Program-made: the position numbers and the translations under genes | The notes under the pieces: model-generated | The model's input: the letters and a program-made list of their open reading frames with translations, nothing else | Databases searched by the model: none | What the model was told of the DNA's origin: nothing | NCBI GenBank assembly: GCA_003566815.1 | Contig: PXBT01000025.1 | Location: 1-36,172, forward strand | DNA length: 36,172 nucleotides | DNA from: Caldisericota bacterium | GTDB lineage: Bacteria; Caldisericota; Caldisericia; UBA6126 | Direction of reading: 5' to 3' | Shown here: piece by piece, positions 15,140 through 27,076 of the stretch | How positions within the stretch are numbered: position 1 is the first letter of the stretch | Layout: every line of letters begins with the position of its first letter

Positions 15140-15733
15140 TTATTCCTGGGGCAAAAGAGTAGCTTCAACTTCCCAGGGTGTATCTTTATCCAGGGTTATA
15201 TCCTGCATAAAAGATTCATAGCCTTCTTTTCGAATTTCAAAGGCATACACCCCCGTTGGCAGGATAATACCTATTTCCTGGTTGAAAAAACAATCAAATT
15301 CTCCATCAATATAAAGCTCACAATCATCCAAATTTGTGATGAAGGTGATACTTATTAGTTCTGCTTTCAGTACAATGCGTTGACGAAGCTCATCCCTGTC
15401 TCCGCTTATAACAACAATATCACTTTGAAGCTCGTTGCCTTCGTAGTCTTTTAATACAATGGTGCGAACCCCCGGCTTGATTTCAAATATTGTTCCAGGA
15501 TCAGTGATATCCTTATCTCCAATAAAAGCTCTGACAGGCTGATCTGCAACAATATCCAAGTAAGCTGTCATAGTAACGGGTTCTTCGCTGAAAACTGGAG
15601 TGGGTGGAGTGTCAGGTTCAACAGGATCGACGGGCTCAACAGGCGCAAGGGCGATTCTAAATCCTCTGATAGCAATCACAGCAATTATAAACAAACATAC
15701 TATCCAAATGACGATTCTAACTCTATTTTTCAT
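15140..15733 (-). CDS. Membrane-anchored PEGA-domain-like protein
   Basis: A 197-residue protein with one N-terminal membrane helix (about 7-26), a Pro/Val/Glu-rich spacer with the repeat PVEPVDPVEP (31-40), and an all-beta extracellular part. The last 70 residues fit a PEGA domain: CELYIDGEF, a central LPTGVYAFEIRKEGYESF and a closing DTPWEVEATL strand. PEGA domains are surface beta-domains of unclear role, often in cell-envelope proteins. The segment 55-125 may be a second, degenerate beta-domain. Start ATG 15733 is the first usable one; AGGAGA lies about 11 bases upstream. Function is unknown beyond a likely envelope location. Confidence 0.75.
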   Translation of the reverse strand: MKNRVRIVIWIVCLFIIAVIAIRGFRIALAPVEPVDPVEPDTPPTPVFSEEPVTMTAYLDIVADQPVRAFIGDKDITDPGTIFEIKPGVRTIVLKDYEGNELQSDIVVISGDRDELRQRIVLKAELISITFITNLDDCELYIDGEFDCFFNQEIGIILPTGVYAFEIRKEGYESFMQDITLDKDTPWEVEATLLPQE

Positions 15734-15805: not shown

Positions 15806-18220
15806 ATGAAAAAAGATTATTTTAATTTTAAAGAGATTGATCAAAAATGGCAGAACTACTGGGAAGAGCATAAAATCTTTCAGCGAAATACGGATAATTC
15901 GAAGAAAAAGTATTATATATTGGATATGTTTCCCTATCCTTCAGCTGAAGGGTTGCATGTGGGCCACCCTGAAGGATATACAGCCAGCGATATAGTTTCA
16001 AGGTTTTACATGATGAAGGGATATAATGTTTTACATCCCATGGGGTGGGATGCTTTTGGCCTTCCAACGGAAAACTATGCTATAAAAATGAAAATTCATC
16101 CCCGTGAAGCAACAAAAAACAATATTGATAATTTTCGAAGACAGATTAAACGATTTGGTTTTAGTTATGACTGGAGTCGTGAAATTAACACTTCTGATCC
16201 ATTTTATTATCGATGGACGCAGTGGATTTTTTTAAAACTCTATCGAAAAGGCTTGGCATATGTTGATGAAGCTCCCATTAATTTTTGCCCTGAATGTAAA
16301 ACAGGTTTGGCTAATGAAGAGGTGACCTCGGGAAAATGTGAGCGATGTGGAGGGGCAATCGAACGCAGAAAGATGAAGCAGTGGATGCTGAGGATTACAG
16401 CTTATGCAGACCGTCTCCTCGAAGACCTGGATATGCTGGATTGGCCTGAAAAAATCAAAGCTATGCAAAAACATTGGATTGGAAGATCAGAGGGAGCAGA
16501 TATTCAATTTTCCATTAAAAACACAGAAGAAAAGATTACGGTTTTTACTACTCGTCCAGATACTTTGATGGGAGCTACCTATATGGTGTTAGCTCCAGAA
16601 CATCCTTTGCTTTCAACCTATGTGGAAGGCGATTTTCGTGTAGCTTTGGACAAGTATTTGCATGAAATTGCTTCAAAAAGTGATCTGGAGCGAACTGAAT
16701 TATCCAAAGAGAAAACAGGTCTTTATACAGGATTGAAGGCTTTGCACCCTGTCACAGGCAATGAAATTCCTATCTATGTTTCAGACTATGTGCTGATGAG
16801 TTATGGCACGGGGAGCATTATGGCTGTTCCAGCACATGATCAAAGGGATTTTGATTTTGCGCAGAAATTTGATTTACCTATTTTGCCTGTTATCAAGCCT
16901 TTAAACAATGCTTTGCCAAATGATCGGGCCTATGAAGAAGAAGGAGTCATGTTTAATTCAGGCATCTTTGACGGAATGCCCTCAGAGGAAGGAAAAAAAG
17001 TTGTTGTTGAATGGCTTGAGAGCAAGGGCAAAGGAAAAAGCACTATACAATATCGTTTGAGAGATTGGGTTTTTTCAAGACAACGATTTTGGGGGGAACC
17101 CATTCCTGTTATTCATTGTAAAACATGTGGCATTGTTCCCTTGTCAGAAAAAGATTTGCCTTTAACCCTTCCTGAGGTTGATTATTATGAATCGAGTGGT
17201 ACAGGAGAGTCTCCTTTGGCGGTATTGAAAGATTGGGTAAATGTGCAATGTCCCAAATGCGGTGAGCCTGCTCAAAGAGAAACCAACACGATGCCACAAT
17301 GGGCGGGGTCATGCTGGTATTATTTGCGCTACATTGACCCGCGCAATAAAGATGCCATTGCATCCAAAGAAAATATTGAATATTGGTTGCCTGTTGACCT
17401 ATATATAGGAGGAGCGGAGCATGCTGTTCTCCATTTGCTCTATGCCAGATTCTGGCACAAATTTCTTTATGATGAAGGAGTGGTAAATACTCCTGAACCC
17501 TTTTTAAAACTCCGGAACCAGGGCATGGTTTTGGCAGAAGATGGAAGAAAGATGTCAAAATCTCTGGGCAATGTTATTAATCCAGATGAAGTTCTGGACA
17601 AATATGGGGCAGATGTGGTCAGATGCTATGAAATGTTCATGGGTCCTTTTGATCAGGAATCTTTGTGGAGCACCCAGGGCATTGAAGGCATCAATCGATT
17701 TATCAAAAAGGTCTGGTCGCTCTTTGATTCAAAGGAATATTCCTCAGCCGAGCCCAACAAAGACACTTTGCGCATCATGCATAAAACTATACGAAAAGTT
17801 ACCGAAGATATCACTCATTTTTCTTTTAATACTGCTATTTCTGCTTTGATGATCTATGTCAATCATTTGAGTAAAATGGAAAGACGAAGCAAAGAAGCTC
17901 TTGAAACGCTATTGCTTTTACTATCGCCATTTGCTCCCCATGTTGTAGAAGAGCTTTGGAATGATCTGGGGCATCCAAAATCTATTCTATGTCAACCTTG
18001 GCCAGCATTTGATCCTCATCTTGCCAAGGATGATATGATTGAAATTCCTATTCAAATCAATGGAAAACTTAGAGAACGATTAATTGTACCTGCTGATATT
18101 GGAGAAGAAGAGTTAAAAACTCTGGTGCTGCAAAGTGAAAAAATTCAGTCTTTTTTAGGAGAGCAGGGTATAAAAAAATGGATCATTGTTCCCAGGCGAT
18201 TGGTTAATATGGTGGCATGA
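15806..18220 (+). CDS. leuS: Leucyl-tRNA synthetase
   Basis: A class I synthetase of 804 residues that charges tRNA-Leu. The HIGH signature is HVGH (residues 51-54), a zinc ribbon CPEC...CERC lies near 160-180, and the CP1 editing domain has TTRPDTLMGATY and GTGSIMAVPAHDQRDFDF. KMSKS is at 582-586, followed by the anticodon-binding and C-terminal domains. Length and domain order are normal for bacterial LeuRS. AGAGGG precedes ATG 15806. It overlaps the next gene by ATGA, tying it to the deacetylase and Na/Pi transporter genes. Confidence 0.98.
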   Translation: MKKDYFNFKEIDQKWQNYWEEHKIFQRNTDNSKKKYYILDMFPYPSAEGLHVGHPEGYTASDIVSRFYMMKGYNVLHPMGWDAFGLPTENYAIKMKIHPREATKNNIDNFRRQIKRFGFSYDWSREINTSDPFYYRWTQWIFLKLYRKGLAYVDEAPINFCPECKTGLANEEVTSGKCERCGGAIERRKMKQWMLRITAYADRLLEDLDMLDWPEKIKAMQKHWIGRSEGADIQFSIKNTEEKITVFTTRPDTLMGATYMVLAPEHPLLSTYVEGDFRVALDKYLHEIASKSDLERTELSKEKTGLYTGLKALHPVTGNEIPIYVSDYVLMSYGTGSIMAVPAHDQRDFDFAQKFDLPILPVIKPLNNALPNDRAYEEEGVMFNSGIFDGMPSEEGKKVVVEWLESKGKGKSTIQYRLRDWVFSRQRFWGEPIPVIHCKTCGIVPLSEKDLPLTLPEVDYYESSGTGESPLAVLKDWVNVQCPKCGEPAQRETNTMPQWAGSCWYYLRYIDPRNKDAIASKENIEYWLPVDLYIGGAEHAVLHLLYARFWHKFLYDEGVVNTPEPFLKLRNQGMVLAEDGRKMSKSLGNVINPDEVLDKYGADVVRCYEMFMGPFDQESLWSTQGIEGINRFIKKVWSLFDSKEYSSAEPNKDTLRIMHKTIRKVTEDITHFSFNTAISALMIYVNHLSKMERRSKEALETLLLLLSPFAPHVVEELWNDLGHPKSILCQPWPAFDPHLAKDDMIEIPIQINGKLRERLIVPADIGEEELKTLVLQSEKIQSFLGEQGIKKWIIVPRRLVNMVA

Positions 18221-19575
18221 AAAAAAAATCATCAAACAGCCTGAAAAAAATATTAACAGGTTTTTTGCTCATAAATTTTTTTATGATTGCATCTGCCTTG
18301 ACGGCTTCATTTGATGAAAAAGAATATCTTGACTATCTTGGTTATCCTGACCCTTTGGCGAATGTAATTCTCAGACAAAACCATTCTGCTCGTTTGTTTT
18401 TTCTTGACCATGCTTTCAATTCTTATCTTGAAGAGTTATATTATGGTGTTTTGGTGGATGGAATCTTAAAAGAGGAAGAAATCAAGCTTATTGGTCATGT
18501 TAAAAAGACATATCCCAATCAACGCATAAAATTTCATGAAGTGATTGCTTTTGATAATTTACTTCAGGTTAACGATTGGGAGTTGTTTTTCAGCTTCAAC
18601 ATTCCCCTTGATTTGATTAGTCTAATTGATTTTGATGAAAAAATGATGGAACAAGTGGAAGAAGTGGTTTATCCTGCGGAAGTGCCTTTTATTCCCGTTA
18701 TAACTTATCATATGGTGGATGATAGCAGATATTGGATTAATCAAATTTCATTTCAATGGCAATTGGAGCAGTTGGCCAATGCTGGGTTTAGCACCATTAG
18801 AGCGGATGCTTTTTTTAGGGGTGACTTTTCTGGCATTCCTGAAGGACGAAAACCAGTTTTACTCACTTTCGACGATGGCTGGGAAAGTCAGTTTCGGCTA
18901 TTGGATGCTCATACTCCAGATCCTATCTCAGGGGTGGGCATGATCCAGTCTATAGCAGAAAAATATCCTGAATTTGGCAATCATGCAGTATTTTATATCT
19001 ATTTTTCTATCATTCCTTTTGGAGAGACTCAGCATCCTGGAAGGTGGAGAGAAAAGTTGATTTATTTGCAAGAGCATGGATTTGAGATTGGTAACCACAC
19101 TTACGACCATCAAATTATGACCAGGTTTAGTCCAGAACAAATCAAGGATAATCTGGACAAATTTTACCAAAGGCTTGAAAAAATTCCGGAAATTGACATC
19201 AGCAAGGCTATGACTCTGGCTTATCCAGGAGGATACATTCCTCTTCATAGAGAGTCAATTGAAAATTATGAGTACAAAGGTCAACCTCTATTAGGTGCTT
19301 TCAAAGCATGGGGAGAAAAGGCTTTGATCCCCCTGCATCCAGATGCGGATATTTATAATTTGCCCAGATATGAAGGCAACAATGAAAATATTCGAAAGAT
19401 ACTGCAGGATGATTTTTTCATTAAAAGATCTTTATATATGACATTGCCTGAATTGTTTACTCAATCAAAACAGTTGATGATTTTTTATCTTTCCGAATTT
19501 ACTGGTACTCTTGAATTTGATCTTATCTGGAGAGGAAAGTGGATGGAAAGCAACAGATTAATGGAGGATCTATGA
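18217..19575 (+). CDS. Secreted NodB-type polysaccharide deacetylase
   Basis: A carbohydrate esterase family 4-like enzyme of 452 residues. A signal or anchor helix spans about 10-30. Residues 31-160 form an unrecognised helical domain with EEL and LKEEEIK motifs. The NodB domain follows, with HMVDD, the metal/catalytic motif TFDDG (217-221), GNHTYDH (292-298; His294 and His298 as metal ligands) and a late AYPGGY. These enzymes remove N-acetyl groups from extracellular or wall glycans. The long N-terminal domain and the insertion after TFDDGWESQF are atypical. It overlaps leuS and the following transporter gene by four bases each. I infer that its substrate may be the polymer made by the GT2 enzyme encoded at 22418. 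Confidence 0.87.
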   Translation: MKKKSSNSLKKILTGFLLINFFMIASALTASFDEKEYLDYLGYPDPLANVILRQNHSARLFFLDHAFNSYLEELYYGVLVDGILKEEEIKLIGHVKKTYPNQRIKFHEVIAFDNLLQVNDWELFFSFNIPLDLISLIDFDEKMMEQVEEVVYPAEVPFIPVITYHMVDDSRYWINQISFQWQLEQLANAGFSTIRADAFFRGDFSGIPEGRKPVLLTFDDGWESQFRLLDAHTPDPISGVGMIQSIAEKYPEFGNHAVFYIYFSIIPFGETQHPGRWREKLIYLQEHGFEIGNHTYDHQIMTRFSPEQIKDNLDKFYQRLEKIPEIDISKAMTLAYPGGYIPLHRESIENYEYKGQPLLGAFKAWGEKALIPLHPDADIYNLPRYEGNNENIRKILQDDFFIKRSLYMTLPELFTQSKQLMIFYLSEFTGTLEFDLIWRGKWMESNRLMEDL

Positions 19576-21305: not shown

Positions 21306-22421
21306 ATGAAGGTATTGATTGATATCGCTATAATCGTTTTATCAATAACCAACATCCTTCTTATCATAATTCTTCTTATTCGAAAAGCTCTCATGATTTT
21401 ATCCGAGCGAAGATATCGAGAATATGAAAAAAGAATGCTGGATGAGATTGAATACAGCATGATGAATGACCCTCCTCAGCTTTTTCTTTCCAAGTATTTG
21501 GATCGCAGAAAACGATCTTTTATTTACCGATTACTTTTAACATTAGCTTCCGAGAAAGGAGCTGATTATCACATTATTTTTGATAAAGCTGGCTTCACAA
21601 GAGAAAAAATAAAAAAACTTAAGAGAAAACAAGATTTGCAAATTATAAAAGAGATATCTATAATTCGTTCGCCAATGGCCTATGATCATCTTTTTGAATT
21701 ACTGGACTCTCCCTCTTCGGAAGTTACCTATCGGGCAGCCTATGCTTTGGCAAATATTGAGCTTGATTCAACTCAGCAGAAAGAAGTCATAGAGACTTTG
21801 ATTCATACCAATATTGTTATGGACAGAGTCATTGAAATCATTGAAATTATTAATCCGCCTGCAGAAGATTATTTTAATTTGCTAAAACAACAACGAAATG
21901 CCAGAGGAAAAATTATTTTACTGCATTTTCTAAAAAATAAAATTAAAAACAAAGATACCACATATCGCTATTTGCAAAAGAAAATTCGCATTGAAACAAA
22001 AAAAATAATTGATCAGGTGATGCCCTTTGTTTATGATGAAGATGTAGTTTCCAACGCAGCTATTTTAGTCCTTGCAGAAACCAGAGAAATGGAAGCTCTC
22101 GAAACCATTTTGGAAAAATATCGCATCAGTTCTTCTGACAATATAAAAATTACCATAGCAAAATCATTACATCACTTTCTACCCCAAAAAGTTATCCCAT
22201 ATCTGAGAAAAATGATTGATCAAGATACCTGGTGGGTCAAATTTCATGCTTTTGAAAGTTTGTTGAAGCTTGGCAATGAAGGGTATAATGAAATTTTATC
22301 TATTTCCATGAATGCAGAAAATCCTGTTCAGGCTGATTTGGCCTATCAAATGATTAGCGGTGCTCATACTTTTCGTATGGTTAAAAGACCTGATGCACCT
22401 GATGAGGAAAATTTGACATGA
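21306..22421 (+). CDS. Membrane-anchored HEAT-repeat protein
   Basis: A 371-residue protein with one N-terminal membrane helix (about 3-28), a basic juxtamembrane stretch, and a long all-helical body. Helical pairs at about 118-160 (HLFELLDSPSSEVTYRAAYALANIEL), 230-262 and 270-345 have the HEAT/armadillo pattern. These repeats make a solenoid that binds partner proteins. The preceding basic segment suggests the body is cytosolic, but this is not certain. An excellent ribosome site AAGGAGG (21293-21299) lies 6 bases from ATG 21306. It overlaps the GT2 gene by ATGA, so the two are translated together. I infer a scaffold or assembly role for that glycosyltransferase. The 72-base gap before it has no terminator and only weak promoter-like sequence. 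Confidence 0.8.
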   Translation: MKVLIDIAIIVLSITNILLIIILLIRKALMILSERRYREYEKRMLDEIEYSMMNDPPQLFLSKYLDRRKRSFIYRLLLTLASEKGADYHIIFDKAGFTREKIKKLKRKQDLQIIKEISIIRSPMAYDHLFELLDSPSSEVTYRAAYALANIELDSTQQKEVIETLIHTNIVMDRVIEIIEIINPPAEDYFNLLKQQRNARGKIILLHFLKNKIKNKDTTYRYLQKKIRIETKKIIDQVMPFVYDEDVVSNAAILVLAETREMEALETILEKYRISSSDNIKITIAKSLHHFLPQKVIPYLRKMIDQDTWWVKFHAFESLLKLGNEGYNEILSISMNAENPVQADLAYQMISGAHTFRMVKRPDAPDEENLT

Positions 22422-23845
22422 TGTATGAGATTTATTACTGGTACAGTCTCTTTATCTTTATTTATTTTTTTGTGATTAATGGTCAATATATTATCCTTAT
22501 CCTTGTTTCTTCCAGAAGACTCAGAGAATACCTGCGATTGTCAAAAACAGATTTTTATGTAGCCACAGAATATACCCCATCCATATCCATTATTGTGCCT
22601 GCAAGAAATGAAGAGCATACGATAGTCGATACCATTACCTCACTTTTTCGATTGGACTACCCGGATTTTGAAATTGTGGTGGTGAATGATGGATCAACCG
22701 ACCAGACCCTTGAAAAATTAATTCAACATTTTGATCTCAAGCCAGTGGAAGCTTCGTATGAAAAAAGCGCAGACTGGATACCTTGCGAAACTGTGCATGG
22801 TTTTTATTCTTCTTTTGTGTATTCCAAACTGCTGGTAGTTGATAAAACGAATGGAGGCAAGTCTGATGCATTGAATGCTGGCATTAATTATGCCAAACAC
22901 GCCCTATTCTGTTCTATTGATGCTGATAGTATTTTGGAAAAACAGACTTTATTAAAATTGGTTCAACCTTTTCTTAACTCGGAAGATACAGTAGCTGTGG
23001 GAGGTATTGTTCGGGTTGCCAATGGATGCACTATTCGAGATGGTGTTTTAAAGGATGTGACCCTTCCCTTTTCGCCTTTGATTATCACCCAGATTATTGA
23101 ATACTTGAGAGCTTTTTTGACCAATAGAATTGGATGGGAGAAAATCAATAGTTTGCTTATTGTATCCGGAGCCATTGGTCTTTTTAAGCGTTCTGTCGTA
23201 ATGGAGCTCCAGGGGTACAAAAATACGATTGGCGAAGATATGGAAATGACCTTGAGAATGCATAAATTTTTAAGGAAAAAGCGTCGAAAGTATCGTATCG
23301 ATTTTGCTCCCGATGCAGTTTGTTGGACTCAGGTGCCTACCAATCTAAATAGTCTCTCGAATCAGCGCATACGATGGCAAAGAGGAATGATAGACTCCCT
23401 CTGGCTTCATCGAGATATGCTTTTCAATCCTCGATATGGAACAGTAGGCTTTTTGGCTCTTCCTTATTTTTGGATATTTGAGATGATGGGCCCCCTTATT
23501 GAGGCTTCGGGATATGTAGTTTTGATACTCTCTATTTTGAGTGGTATTATTTCAGAATTTTTTATCTTTGTTTTTTTGATGGCTTATTTATTTGGCTTTT
23601 TCTTTTCTTTGGTGGCAATATTTATCAATGAAATATCTTATAATTACTATAAAAAATACAAAGAAATACTTAAGCTGATTTTTTATGCATTGCTGGATCC
23701 AGTATGGTATAGACCTTTTACTGTTTATTGGAGAATAAAGGCGTTTGTGGGCTATAAAAAAAGTAAAAGGCAATGGGGCACCATAAAGAGGGAGACTTTT
23801 ATGATGGATCATTCTTCAGCACAAAATGAGGCAGCTCAGCAATAA
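22418..23845 (+). CDS. Processive-type family 2 glycosyltransferase
   Basis: A membrane GT2 enzyme of 475 residues resembling poly-GlcNAc, hyaluronan and cellulose synthases. Layout: one N-terminal helix (about 8-32), a GT-A catalytic domain with VNDGSTD (Asp91), NGGKSDALNAG (145-155), DADS (168-171) and GED (272-274), QRIRW (the QxxRW motif, Gln316-Trp320), then three or four membrane helices (about 345-420). The QxxRW motif marks processive synthases that push the chain through the membrane. An insertion of about 30 residues with SADWIPCETVHGF lies between the first two motifs. There is no PilZ domain, so c-di-GMP control is not indicated. It sits between the HEAT protein and the large glycosidase. 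Confidence 0.92.
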   Translation: MMYEIYYWYSLFIFIYFFVINGQYIILILVSSRRLREYLRLSKTDFYVATEYTPSISIIVPARNEEHTIVDTITSLFRLDYPDFEIVVVNDGSTDQTLEKLIQHFDLKPVEASYEKSADWIPCETVHGFYSSFVYSKLLVVDKTNGGKSDALNAGINYAKHALFCSIDADSILEKQTLLKLVQPFLNSEDTVAVGGIVRVANGCTIRDGVLKDVTLPFSPLIITQIIEYLRAFLTNRIGWEKINSLLIVSGAIGLFKRSVVMELQGYKNTIGEDMEMTLRMHKFLRKKRRKYRIDFAPDAVCWTQVPTNLNSLSNQRIRWQRGMIDSLWLHRDMLFNPRYGTVGFLALPYFWIFEMMGPLIEASGYVVLILSILSGIISEFFIFVFLMAYLFGFFFSLVAIFINEISYNYYKKYKEILKLIFYALLDPVWYRPFTVYWRIKAFVGYKKSKRQWGTIKRETFMMDHSSAQNEAAQQ

Positions 23846-23863
23846 GCGAGGTGACAGGAATCT

Positions 23864-26800
23864 ATGAAAAAAAAGGGATTGCGTCAAAAATTCAAGTCTT
23901 CATCAGTTCTGCTAATTTTTATTGCAATCGGGTTGATGCTATTGCTTCCTGTGATTCTTTGGCACTCACAGCCTTCATATACTTTAAATATTTGGATTCT
24001 GGATAATACTGTTCCTGATATGACCTACAGAGAACATAGAGGTTTGATGTGGGCGTTGAATCATTTTAGAGTTCAGCCTCCAGGGAAGTCTCATTTCAAG
24101 TATGAGCGCGATTATTTTGGATTTTTTCCTCATGAAGACAAAACATATACTATAAAAGATTTAACTTATGCGCCCGATCATCCTGATTTGATCTATATAG
24201 CTGACACTTATGGCGTATATGAGCAGGAATTTATGGAAGAAAAACCGAGAGGAGATCGTTCTCCTCTTATATATGGAGGATTCAGTGCTATTGATATGTT
24301 CAGGGTGAGGAAATTCTTGCGCAACGGGACCACCGTTATAGGAGAATTTAATACTTTTGCTACTCCCACATCAAAAGACATGCGTCATCAACTGGAAAAT
24401 ATTTTGGGAGCAAGCTGGAAAGAATGGATGGGAAGATACTTCCAGGATTTAGCTCGTGACAAGGAAGTTACCCGATGGATGGTTCAAAATTATGAAGCTC
24501 AGCATAGGAGACCATGGGTTTACGAAGGCCCAGGATATGTTCTTGCGTCCAACTGGGATGAAATCGTTGTGCTTAAATCAGGTGTGGATGTGGGCTCCAA
24601 AGAATGCCTGATCAAAGTTAGATCAGAACATGAGGAGGAGTTTGATTTAAAAAAAGAAATCCCATATTATTATTGGTTTGAATTTGTTCAAGCGAATGAT
24701 GAGACTGAAATTATAGCTGATTTTCATCTGGATGTTACACAAAAAGGCAAGGAAAAATTGGAAGCTATTGGGCTTCATGAAATATTTCCTGCCATCACAC
24801 GATATCGCAATGAAGACTATACTGCCTATTATTTTGCAGGAGATTTTGCAGATCATACTGCTGTGCCTCGTTTTTGGCAATTCGCTGGTCTAAGTTGGAT
24901 TAGAAAGCATACGACTATGCACATCAAGGGTGAAGCGAATGCCTTTTTTTGGAGAGGTTATGTGCCTTTGATGAAAAAGATACTCGAAGATATCAAGAAT
25001 GATCCCATGGTCGAACAAAGAAGAATAAAGGCTAAAACTGATGATTATTTTGAAGATGAAGGTATTCGCATGATAAGCAAGACTGACGATCAAAATTTTT
25101 ATATCTACAAGGACAATGAATGGGAGCCTCTTTTTATTCAAGGGGTTAACATGGGTCTTGCCAAACCTGGTAAATGGTCGACTGATTTTCCTTCCAACGA
25201 GGCTACTTATGAGCGGTGGTTTAAAATGATTGCTGAGATGAATGCTAACGCTATCCGCACCTATACGCTCATGGATCCTTCTTTTTATCGAGCTTTATAT
25301 TTATATAATATTCATCATCCCGAAAAACCTCTTTATTTACTGCAGGGAATATGGCCCGAAGAGCACCCTCCTGATGACAACTATATAAAGGAAGATTATA
25401 TGGAAGAATTCTTGCAGGAAATTCGATACGGAATTGATGCTCTTCATGGAAATATTGATATTCCCAAGAGGAGCGGAAGAGCATGGGGGAGATATGTGGC
25501 AGACTGCTCTCCTTTTACTATAGCATGGCTGGTGGGAAGAGAATTTGAACCTCAGGAAGTGGATGCTACCAACCAGCTTAATCCTGGTTTTATTTATGAA
25601 GGAAAGTACCTGCAATGCACACAGGGTTCACCAACAGAAGCTTGGCTGGCATGGTCATGCGATCAAACAGTAAAATATGAAGTTGAAAATTATGGATGGG
25701 AGCGCCCGGTTTCTTTTGTGAGTTGGCCTACTCTCGATCCTATTGAATGGGACTCTGAATGGAATGAAGAAGGCGATAAAACCAAAGAATGGAATGATTG
25801 GATGTCGGTGGATATTAATATGATTGATCGCATGCCAGCAATGAAGGGTGGTTTTTTTGGTTCTTATCATATTTATCCCAACTTTCCTGATTTTATGAAC
25901 AATGAGTTGGATTTTTTTAATTATTATGACGATGAAGGTCGTTTTCTTTACAGAGGATATCTGCAAACTTTTATCGATCAGCATACTCGATACCCTGCTC
26001 TGGTAGCTGAATTCGGACTGGCCACAGGAATGGGTAATGCTCATTCCAATCCAGATGGCTACCATCATGGGGCTCAAACTGAAGAAGAAATGGGCCATGG
26101 TGTAGTGCGAATGTTTAAAAATATATATGAAACAGGCTATATTGGAGGGGTTATTTTTGCATGGATGGATGAATGGGCAAAGAAGACCTGGACCACGGAG
26201 CCCTTTATGGTGCCTTTTGAGCGACAAGTGTTTTGGCATAATGCTATTTGCCCTGAACAAAACTATGGAATTTTGGCGAATGAGTCTGTAGAGCCTGATG
26301 AACCTGAATGGACAATAGAACAAAACGAGTGGATTCAGCGAATGTCTATAAAATCTGATGTAGCTTTTTTATACATTGATCTTGACTTCAAAGACCCCCT
26401 CAATCTTATGGAGCAGGAGCTAATCATAGGGATTGATACCCATGATCGCATTAGAGGTGAATTTCGCTATAGAGAAGATTTGAGTATGCGAGCTCCTTCA
26501 GGACTGGAGTATAAGGTTTCTTTTCAAAATGGAAGAGCTGATTTGTTGGTCATACCCTCCTACAACATAGGAAATATGAAGTTTCAATCTCAATCAAGTG
26601 AAAAGGGTTATTTTGAGAAAATGGAACCTCTGATTAATAAAGAACGCATTCGAAAAGATGGGAGCATTATTCCTGAAATTAGAGAAGATGCCAGTCTTTT
26701 GCTGGAAGGAAATTTCATCGAAAGTCGCTTTCATTATCACTGGTTGAATGGCGGAAGAACCTTGAGATTGCGTCTTCCCTGGGGAAGATTGAATGTTACC

Positions 26801-27076
26801 GATCCATCCAGTTACAGAGTTTTGGATGATCCTCGAACAATGTATTGGTACTTACTGAGGGATGAATATCAAACAGTTACAACGAATGGTTTTGTTATCA
26901 CAGCGCTACTTGCTGATCAAAACAACGATTTTGTACATAGCTTCATGCCTCGCAATCCTAATGATCAAAAGCCCTATCTTTGGAACCGTTGGGAAGAGCC
27001 TCTTTATCAGGAACGACTCAAAAAAAGCTACCCCATTATTCAGGAATTTTTAGGTTCCTTTTGGTGGAAAAATTAA
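23864..27076 (+). CDS. Very large membrane-anchored clan GH-A-like glycoside hydrolase
   Basis: A 1070-residue protein with an N-terminal membrane anchor (about 14-34) and an otherwise extracellular body. Residues 37-330 form an unknown domain with PDLIYIADTYGVY and TTVIGEFNTFATPT, perhaps a Rossmann-like fold. Residues 420-780 look like a TIM barrel: GVNMG (427-431), NAIRTYT (462-468), LVGREFEP with Glu560 as candidate acid/base, and PALVAEFGL with Glu716 as candidate nucleophile, both placed like the catalytic pair of GH2/GH5 enzymes. The last 290 residues are rich in beta strands and Trp, suggesting a carbohydrate-binding domain. The family is not one I can name. Position after the GT2 gene (18-base gap) implies trimming or release of the exported polymer. 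Its last 41 bases overlap a convergent gene. Confidence 0.72.
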   Translation: MKKKGLRQKFKSSSVLLIFIAIGLMLLLPVILWHSQPSYTLNIWILDNTVPDMTYREHRGLMWALNHFRVQPPGKSHFKYERDYFGFFPHEDKTYTIKDLTYAPDHPDLIYIADTYGVYEQEFMEEKPRGDRSPLIYGGFSAIDMFRVRKFLRNGTTVIGEFNTFATPTSKDMRHQLENILGASWKEWMGRYFQDLARDKEVTRWMVQNYEAQHRRPWVYEGPGYVLASNWDEIVVLKSGVDVGSKECLIKVRSEHEEEFDLKKEIPYYYWFEFVQANDETEIIADFHLDVTQKGKEKLEAIGLHEIFPAITRYRNEDYTAYYFAGDFADHTAVPRFWQFAGLSWIRKHTTMHIKGEANAFFWRGYVPLMKKILEDIKNDPMVEQRRIKAKTDDYFEDEGIRMISKTDDQNFYIYKDNEWEPLFIQGVNMGLAKPGKWSTDFPSNEATYERWFKMIAEMNANAIRTYTLMDPSFYRALYLYNIHHPEKPLYLLQGIWPEEHPPDDNYIKEDYMEEFLQEIRYGIDALHGNIDIPKRSGRAWGRYVADCSPFTIAWLVGREFEPQEVDATNQLNPGFIYEGKYLQCTQGSPTEAWLAWSCDQTVKYEVENYGWERPVSFVSWPTLDPIEWDSEWNEEGDKTKEWNDWMSVDINMIDRMPAMKGGFFGSYHIYPNFPDFMNNELDFFNYYDDEGRFLYRGYLQTFIDQHTRYPALVAEFGLATGMGNAHSNPDGYHHGAQTEEEMGHGVVRMFKNIYETGYIGGVIFAWMDEWAKKTWTTEPFMVPFERQVFWHNAICPEQNYGILANESVEPDEPEWTIEQNEWIQRMSIKSDVAFLYIDLDFKDPLNLMEQELIIGIDTHDRIRGEFRYREDLSMRAPSGLEYKVSFQNGRADLLVIPSYNIGNMKFQSQSSEKGYFEKMEPLINKERIRKDGSIIPEIREDASLLLEGNFIESRFHYHWLNGGRTLRLRLPWGRLNVTDPSSYRVLDDPRTMYWYLLRDEYQTVTTNGFVITALLADQNNDFVHSFMPRNPNDQKPYLWNRWEEPLYQERLKKSYPIIQEFLGSFWWKN

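Follow-up and report, generated by a model that had tools for sequence, protein, structure and literature searches.

The stretch of DNA analysed here (the window) comprises 36,172 nucleotides of contig PXBT01000025.1, from assembly GCA_003566815.1 of a Caldisericota bacterium, and carries at positions 21306-27076, on the + strand, three genes for a HEAT-repeat protein, a glycosyltransferase of family 2 (GT2) and a 1070-aa protein with a predicted barrel of glycoside hydrolase (GH) clan A (GH-A). We consider it fairly likely that this locus represents a version of a synthase-dependent extracellular polysaccharide (EPS) system, whose core consists of an inner-membrane GT2 and a membrane-anchored, cytoplasmic HEAT protein. 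An earlier note on this DNA had put the locus forward as a candidate for such a system, a proposal sustained by the conserved HEAT-GT2 pairing and the distinct clade of the GT2. Computation established the composition and conservation of the gene set, the distinctness of its GT2 clade, the folds predicted for its proteins and a bias in membrane topology.

The HEAT and GT2 genes overlap by 4 bases (ATGA at 22418-22421), and an 18-nt gap separates the GT2 stop from the start of the 1070-aa gene; coordinates, strand, overlap and gap were rechecked and are exactly those of the earlier note. A strong ribosome-binding site, AAGGAGG, precedes the HEAT gene, and a promoter scan of the locus returned no more matches than in shuffled sequence.

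Conserved pairing of HEAT and GT2 genes

An alignment of GT2 proteins was used to scan 84,980 species genomes, the alignment of the GH-A protein, which includes all seven divergent homologues, being too variable for this purpose; the use of the GT2 rather than the GH protein as query thus provides a less biased test of co-occurrence. Among the best 80 loci, which were kept, 78 have an intact GT2 call, and a HEAT gene lies directly upstream of the GT2 gene, on the same strand and with a gap of at most 35 nt, in 77 of them; in the single exception, the GT2 is located at the start of the contig. At least ten phyla carry the pair (Bacteroidota, Bacillota, Pseudomonadota, Gemmatimonadota, Fidelibacterota, Elusimicrobiota, Thermodesulfobacteriota, Acidobacteriota, Actinomycetota, and Myxococcota), to which plasmid records add Deinococcota and haloarchaea. 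On plasmids, HEAT was found at position -1 in all 12 of the examined loci whose GT2 scores at least 222 bits, three of them haloarchaeal, versus none of the seven control GT2 loci at or below 149 bits; this gap in scores, 222 versus 149 bits, separates HEAT-linked from HEAT-free loci. None of the E. coli PgaC, BcsA, NfrB, and YaiP loci (0/4) has a HEAT gene. Furthermore, the pairwise distances of GT2 and HEAT proteins correlate, with a Mantel r of 0.83 that was reached in 0 of 999 permutations.

The co-occurrence search that the earlier note had suggested as a check thus found HEAT and GT2 together nearly always. Its three-gene set held only for this core: the glycosidase is linked to HEAT-GT2 in 16/23 Bacillota versus 2/40 Bacteroidota loci, and is hence not a core component. 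Closer to the window, the GT2 and the GH protein are present in all five genomes of the organism's family, and only one other among 56 wider genomes searched carries this GT2.

A separate clade of processive-type GT2s

The GT2 (475 aa; 22418..23845, + strand) was assigned to the HEAT-linked clade using Pfam, NCBIfam, and a tree. It scores well over the cut-offs of PF13641 and PF00535 and displays an NDGS motif at residue 90, a DAD motif at residues 168-170 (22919..22927) that is invariant in the GT2 alignment A2, and, by motif search and in the GT2 alignment, a GED motif at residues 272-274 (23231..23239) and a QxxRW motif, as QRIRW, at residues 316-320 (23363..23377). Hydrophobic segments flank the catalytic domain on either side, so that the earlier description of a GT2 with the processive QxxRW motif and flanking membrane helices was accurate. 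An inner-membrane, processive GT2-type synthase with D, DxD, ED, and QxxRW motifs and membrane helices is a feature of synthase-dependent EPS systems that the window GT2 displays.

The best NCBIfam match of this protein is PgaC_IcaA (TIGR03937), whose cut-off of 422 bits it misses widely with a score of 135; it reaches 45 bits for BcsA (TIGR03030, cut-off 699) and 102 bits for the XrtG-associated glycosyltransferase (TIGR03111, cut-off 364). In the tree, a branch supported at 99 in the Shimodaira-Hasegawa-like approximate likelihood ratio test (SH-aLRT) separates all HEAT-linked GT2s from PgaC, IcaA, and others, and their clade lies outside the PgaC/IcaA, BcsA, NfrB, and XrtG groups. The comparison with characterized synthases proposed in the earlier note therefore places the GT2 in none of these characterized groups. 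The window GT2 itself clusters with those of Clostridium and Paenibacillus (support 98-99). Of note, RiGT2 of Romboutsia ilealis (PMC10374906) was considered and set aside, as it carries a PilZ domain and is BcsA-like.

The HEAT protein and its predicted side of the membrane

The near-invariable neighbour of the GT2 is a HEAT-repeat protein of 371 aa (21306..22421, + strand), which matches Pfam HEAT_2 at 50.1 bits (gathering cut-off 27.7), with the best-scoring stretch at residues 247-319 (22044..22262). Hydropathy indicates a single, N-terminal membrane helix at residues 7-25 (21324..21380), followed by a Lys/Arg-rich stretch, in agreement with the membrane-anchored HEAT-repeat protein initially described. 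All 41 homologues tested (41/41) match Pfam HEAT_2, which shows that their assignment as HEAT proteins was not created by the custom profile.

From the charge bias around the helix (positive-inside rule), the HEAT domain is predicted to be cytoplasmic in 74/80 proteins, i.e., on the same face of the membrane as the GT2 catalytic domain. For this reason, HEAT is probably a partner or regulator of the synthase rather than a substitute for a periplasmic TPR protein.

Export, modification, and receiver genes

The genes found around the pair vary with the cell envelope. A YaiO outer-membrane barrel is encoded beside HEAT-GT2 in 36/40 Bacteroidota and 4/4 Pseudomonadota loci, and in 0/23 Bacillota. 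YaiO is thus present in 40/44 loci from Bacteroidota and Pseudomonadota, with TPR in several, in line with the combination of TPR and outer-membrane porin of EPS systems of diderms; the TPR repeats are often carried by the YaiO protein, as in the PgaA and BcsC architecture. Polysaccharide-modifying enzymes, another feature of EPS systems, are also represented, by the GH-A protein with both of its Glu residues and by phospho-transferases in Bacteroidota. The latter resemble lipoteichoic acid (LTA) synthases and phosphoglycerol transferases and adjoin the GT2, and in five loci (L041, L046, L055, L065, and L075) the GT2 is fused to an LTA-synthase-like domain in a protein of ~1140 aa; the phospho-transferase is missing from most HEAT-GT2 loci. 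In Clostridia and Planococcus, CotH, VTC, and DUF4956 genes precede the set; these three have been reported as accessory genes beside Gram-positive pel (PMC7112168).

In 56/78 loci, one of the second to fourth genes before the GT2 codes for a receiver-domain protein; position -2 is occupied by such a gene in 39/75, versus ~2% at distant positions. Stand-alone receivers have kept the phospho-acceptor Asp in 94% and the switch Lys in 100% of cases. The order receiver, HEAT, GT2 is found in haloarchaeal plasmid loci (L106, L107, and L108) and likewise in a relative from the window organism's own class. No c-di-GMP (cyclic di-GMP) domain is common to all HEAT-GT2 loci.

Clues to the substrate are mixed across lineages and favour no substrate; they include amino-sugar genes, a UDP-sugar dehydrogenase, and GH157- and GH16-like beta-glucanase folds. 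The haloarchaeal set of Halosolutus is flanked by a sugar nucleotidyltransferase gene and glmS, which suggests an amino-sugar polymer in this case, while a UDP-sugar dehydrogenase is encoded together with epimerases in the Legionella locus. A GH16-like protein with an ExDxE motif is encoded next to the system, on the opposite strand, in close relatives of the window organism (L013 12082-12945; L015 10419-11222, the latter with a weak Pfam match). Finally, a conserved ~300-aa protein without a Pfam family, save for one weak TIM-barrel match, is encoded near the system in 11 loci (e.g., L008 5449-6546, L010 4030-4956, and L089 1757-2656).

Profile searches of the window genome gave no match to Omp85, GGDEF, or PilZ, and the organism therefore looks like a monoderm without c-di-GMP control, to which the porin feature of diderm EPS systems does not apply. 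The lack of PilZ, GGDEF, and outer-membrane parts that had been ascribed to the system is consequently correct for the window genome; it does not extend to the family, given the YaiO loci of diderms. Similarly, diderms carry the HEAT-GT2 core no less commonly, and haloarchaea have it too, so that the label of a Gram-positive counterpart is not supported.

Two other products are encoded in the vicinity of the locus. An extracytoplasmic polysaccharide deacetylase is encoded at 18217-19575, with an Na/Pi symporter-PhoU gene between it and the HEAT gene; it was ruled out as an operon member, because relatives lack it next to the system and it is unrelated to the deacetylase found near the system in genome G001. 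A membrane-anchored PEGA-domain protein is encoded at 15140-15733 on the - strand.

The 1070-aa GATase/GH-A protein

The third gene (23864..27076, + strand) encodes a protein for which an AlphaFold2 model, built from 27 homologues (mean confidence score, pLDDT, 84), and Foldseek searches indicate a membrane anchor, a GATase-like domain, a GH-A barrel, and a C-terminal beta region. The anchor was placed by hydropathy at residues 14-32 (23903..23959). The GATase-like domain (ThuA, GH42 accessory, or Agd3-like; residues ~40-330, 23981..24853) folds separately with a pLDDT of 87, its nearest structures being Agd3, GH42 accessory domains, and ThuA. The predicted (beta/alpha)8 barrel (residues ~420-800, 25121..26263) matches first the GH157 endo-beta-1,3-glucanase (E-value 1.2e-11), then GH2, GH5, and GH72, all of clan GH-A. 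As expected for this clan, it combines such a barrel with two catalytic Glu, i.e., Glu560 (25541..25543), the predicted acid/base, aligned in 20/21 homologues, and Glu716 (26009..26011), the predicted nucleophile, in 21/21. We regard the protein as a glycosidase or transglycosylase of the retaining type that is probably active.

Searches of Pfam, NCBIfam, and the PDB found no sequence match for the GH protein, and no GH family could be assigned from these; in the PDB, sequence queries were negative for the profile of the protein as well, and for its GH16-like and ~300-aa neighbours. The protein, which the earlier note had described as a membrane-anchored, GH-A-like and unfamiliar glycosidase of 1070 aa, is thus as unfamiliar as had been supposed, and its predicted structure does match clan GH-A. 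The "giant" is better viewed as two modules on one anchor, because each occurs separately in homologues: the GATase-like domain is free-standing in several relatives, and the barrel lacks it in many homologues from Bacillota, Deinococcus, and Bacteroidota. A lone anchored GATase-like domain is also encoded at L007 1492-2607, in the distant genome G059, which has no GT2 of the clade at an E-value of 1e-60. The acid/base Glu is missing from one Paenibacillus tandem paralogue, and both Glu are missing from a Planococcus homologue; homologues with Glu loss (L008 8935-12036; L017 4803-7850; L010 7830-9899) are probable pseudoenzymes that stand beside active copies or replace them.

Proposed mechanism and alternative readings

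In synthase-dependent EPS systems, a regulatory or co-polymerase part, which classically binds c-di-GMP, controls the synthase. For the HEAT-GT2 system, we infer the production of a polymer from a sugar substrate, its transport, the binding of HEAT to the synthase, and phospho-control. The GT2 would polymerise a nucleotide sugar and extrude the growing chain across the membrane by a channel of its own, in the manner of BcsA, HasA, and PgaC. Since the HEAT domain is predicted on the catalytic face of the GT2, we read it as an obligate cytoplasmic partner, whose solenoid would dock on the catalytic domain and which, where a receiver is encoded, could link phosphorylation to synthesis by passing the signal to the synthase, in the place held by PilZ or PgaD in c-di-GMP systems. 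Diderm cells would release the chain via the YaiO barrel, often with TPR repeats, and the LTA-synthase-like enzyme may add phospho-groups to it. For the window organism and many Bacillota, the chain would instead appear on the outside of the membrane, and the anchored GATase/GH-A protein, with its retaining Glu pair, may trim, release, or remodel it there. More tentatively, HEAT-linked GT2s could form a synthase class of their own, found in bacteria as well as in haloarchaea. A HEAT adaptor in the cytoplasm would then connect a phosphorelay receiver directly to the synthase, and phosphorylation would control polymer synthesis post-translationally in place of c-di-GMP, a proposal that we find possible while leaning somewhat against it.

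Several points weigh against this picture of a HEAT-GT2 polysaccharide system. The SH-aLRT support of the GT2 clade falls to 86 if references on long branches are retained, the correlation between GT2 and HEAT distances is partly expected from shared species history, and the HEAT topology rests on the positive-inside rule, which is a simple one. The receiver and YaiO counts come from profiles made from the loci themselves, samples of which were confirmed by Pfam/NCBIfam. Lastly, in family member G002 the GH gene and HEAT-GT2 are on separate contigs, and neither a receiver nor an export part adjoins the window locus, to which the regulatory side of the model is thus not directly applicable.

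Other readings of the same genes fare less well. The locus could be a divergent poly-N-acetylglucosamine (PNAG) system of the PgaC/IcaA type, its GT2 making poly-GlcNAc, with HEAT in place of PgaD/IcaD and the deacetylase at 18217-19575 acting as PgaB/IcaB. The best NCBIfam match of the GT2, the presence of the deacetylase two genes upstream, and the GlmS and sugar nucleotidyltransferase genes flanking the haloarchaeal set all fit such a system, which we nonetheless hold to be unlikely: 135 bits is far under the cut-off of 422, the clade stands apart from PgaC/IcaA, the partner gene encodes HEAT rather than PgaD or IcaD, and the deacetylase, split off by the phosphate symporter gene, is not conserved in relatives. 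It is similarly improbable that the GT2 is not a polymer synthase and makes a membrane glycolipid or a teichoic-acid-like glycan, extended by the LTA-synthase-like partner. The LTA-synthase/phosphoglycerol-transferase partners and fusions of Bacteroidota would suit this role, but the intact QxxRW motif with flanking helices, the YaiO/TPR outer-membrane partner as in export systems, the GH-A enzyme of monoderms, and the lack of a phospho-transferase at most loci all argue for a polymer synthase. BcsG-type phospho-decoration of cellulose offers an alternative reading of the LTA-synthase-like partner.

We give distinctly less credence to the version of the earlier note, in which an extracytoplasmic HEAT scaffold substitutes for TPR in a monoderm system. 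HEAT and TPR are indeed both helical solenoids and monoderm loci lack the YaiO/TPR partner; however, HEAT domains are predicted to be cytoplasmic in 74/80 proteins, and in diderms HEAT co-occurs with a separate TPR/YaiO protein and does not take its place; the periplasmic scaffold role was rejected on topology. As for unrelated neighbours arranged by chance, HEAT and GT2 genes are each common, but adjacency in 77/78 loci over at least ten phyla, 0/7 among control GT2s, and the correlated distances refute this idea, whose probability we regard as negligible.

Comparison with known systems

A 2020 survey of synthase-dependent EPS systems covers cellulose, acetylated cellulose, PNAG, alginate, and Pel, and mentions neither HEAT nor YaiO (PMC7112194); Nfr, a different system, was added in 2021 (PMC8669469). 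No description of the HEAT-GT2 set was found in the open-access full-text literature, although an unseen report may exist elsewhere (subscription journals, preprints), and the system is thus apparently undescribed so far. If our reading is true, a further synthase-dependent EPS system exists in at least ten bacterial phyla, in Deinococcota, and in haloarchaea, annotated only as "HEAT repeat protein + glycosyltransferase", and a large share of bacterial matrix biology would still be uncharted. The receiver-HEAT-GT2 arrangement would provide an alternative to control by c-di-GMP that can be tested, the YaiO barrels, an orphan family, would be offered a role, and the GH protein would represent a family of glycosidases to which nothing in the libraries searched (Pfam, NCBIfam, PDB) is related at the sequence level.

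The PNAG systems PgaABCD and IcaADBC share with this one a membrane GT2 core with QxxRW, a small essential partner, TPR and a beta-barrel porin in diderms, and a glycosidase or deacetylase accessory. They differ in that the HEAT-linked GT2 forms its own clade, far under the family cut-off, with HEAT for PgaD/IcaD, YaiO for the PgaA barrel, and no conserved PgaB. E. coli Nfr (NfrB-NfrA-YbcH; PMC8669469) likewise combines a GT2 synthase that has its own regulatory part with a TPR/beta-barrel outer-membrane protein and an anchored auxiliary protein, but is regulated by a fused MshEN c-di-GMP domain, lacks HEAT, and has its NfrB outside the HEAT-linked clade. Nor does the locus correspond to the cellulose synthase BcsA, the window GT2 scoring 45 bits against a cut-off of 699 and the window genome having no PilZ match; BcsB was not searched for separately.

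Pel relies on PelF and PelG and is not known to use a QxxRW GT2. The Gram-positive cluster pelDEADAFG (PMC7112168) has CotH, VTC (polyphosphate polymerase), and DUF4956 accessories in common with the Planococcus and Clostridia versions of the HEAT-GT2 system, but lacks HEAT. In the E. coli yaiO-yaiX-yaiP-yaiS cluster, the YaiO barrel is next to a GT2 and modifying enzymes, as in diderm HEAT-GT2 loci; unlike these, it has no HEAT, and YaiP, 24% identical over part of the GT2, lies outside the clade on a long branch. In E. coli K-12 (L096), yaiX is split by IS2, and a possible relative of the system may thus have been disrupted there. As to the GH protein, its predicted barrel and catalytic Glu pair resemble those of GH157, GH2, GH5, and GH72 of clan GH-A, and its N-terminal domain the GATase-like accessory domain of GH42 and Agd3, while its membrane anchor, its order of domains, and its lack of a sequence match in Pfam, NCBIfam, or the PDB set it apart from these known enzymes.

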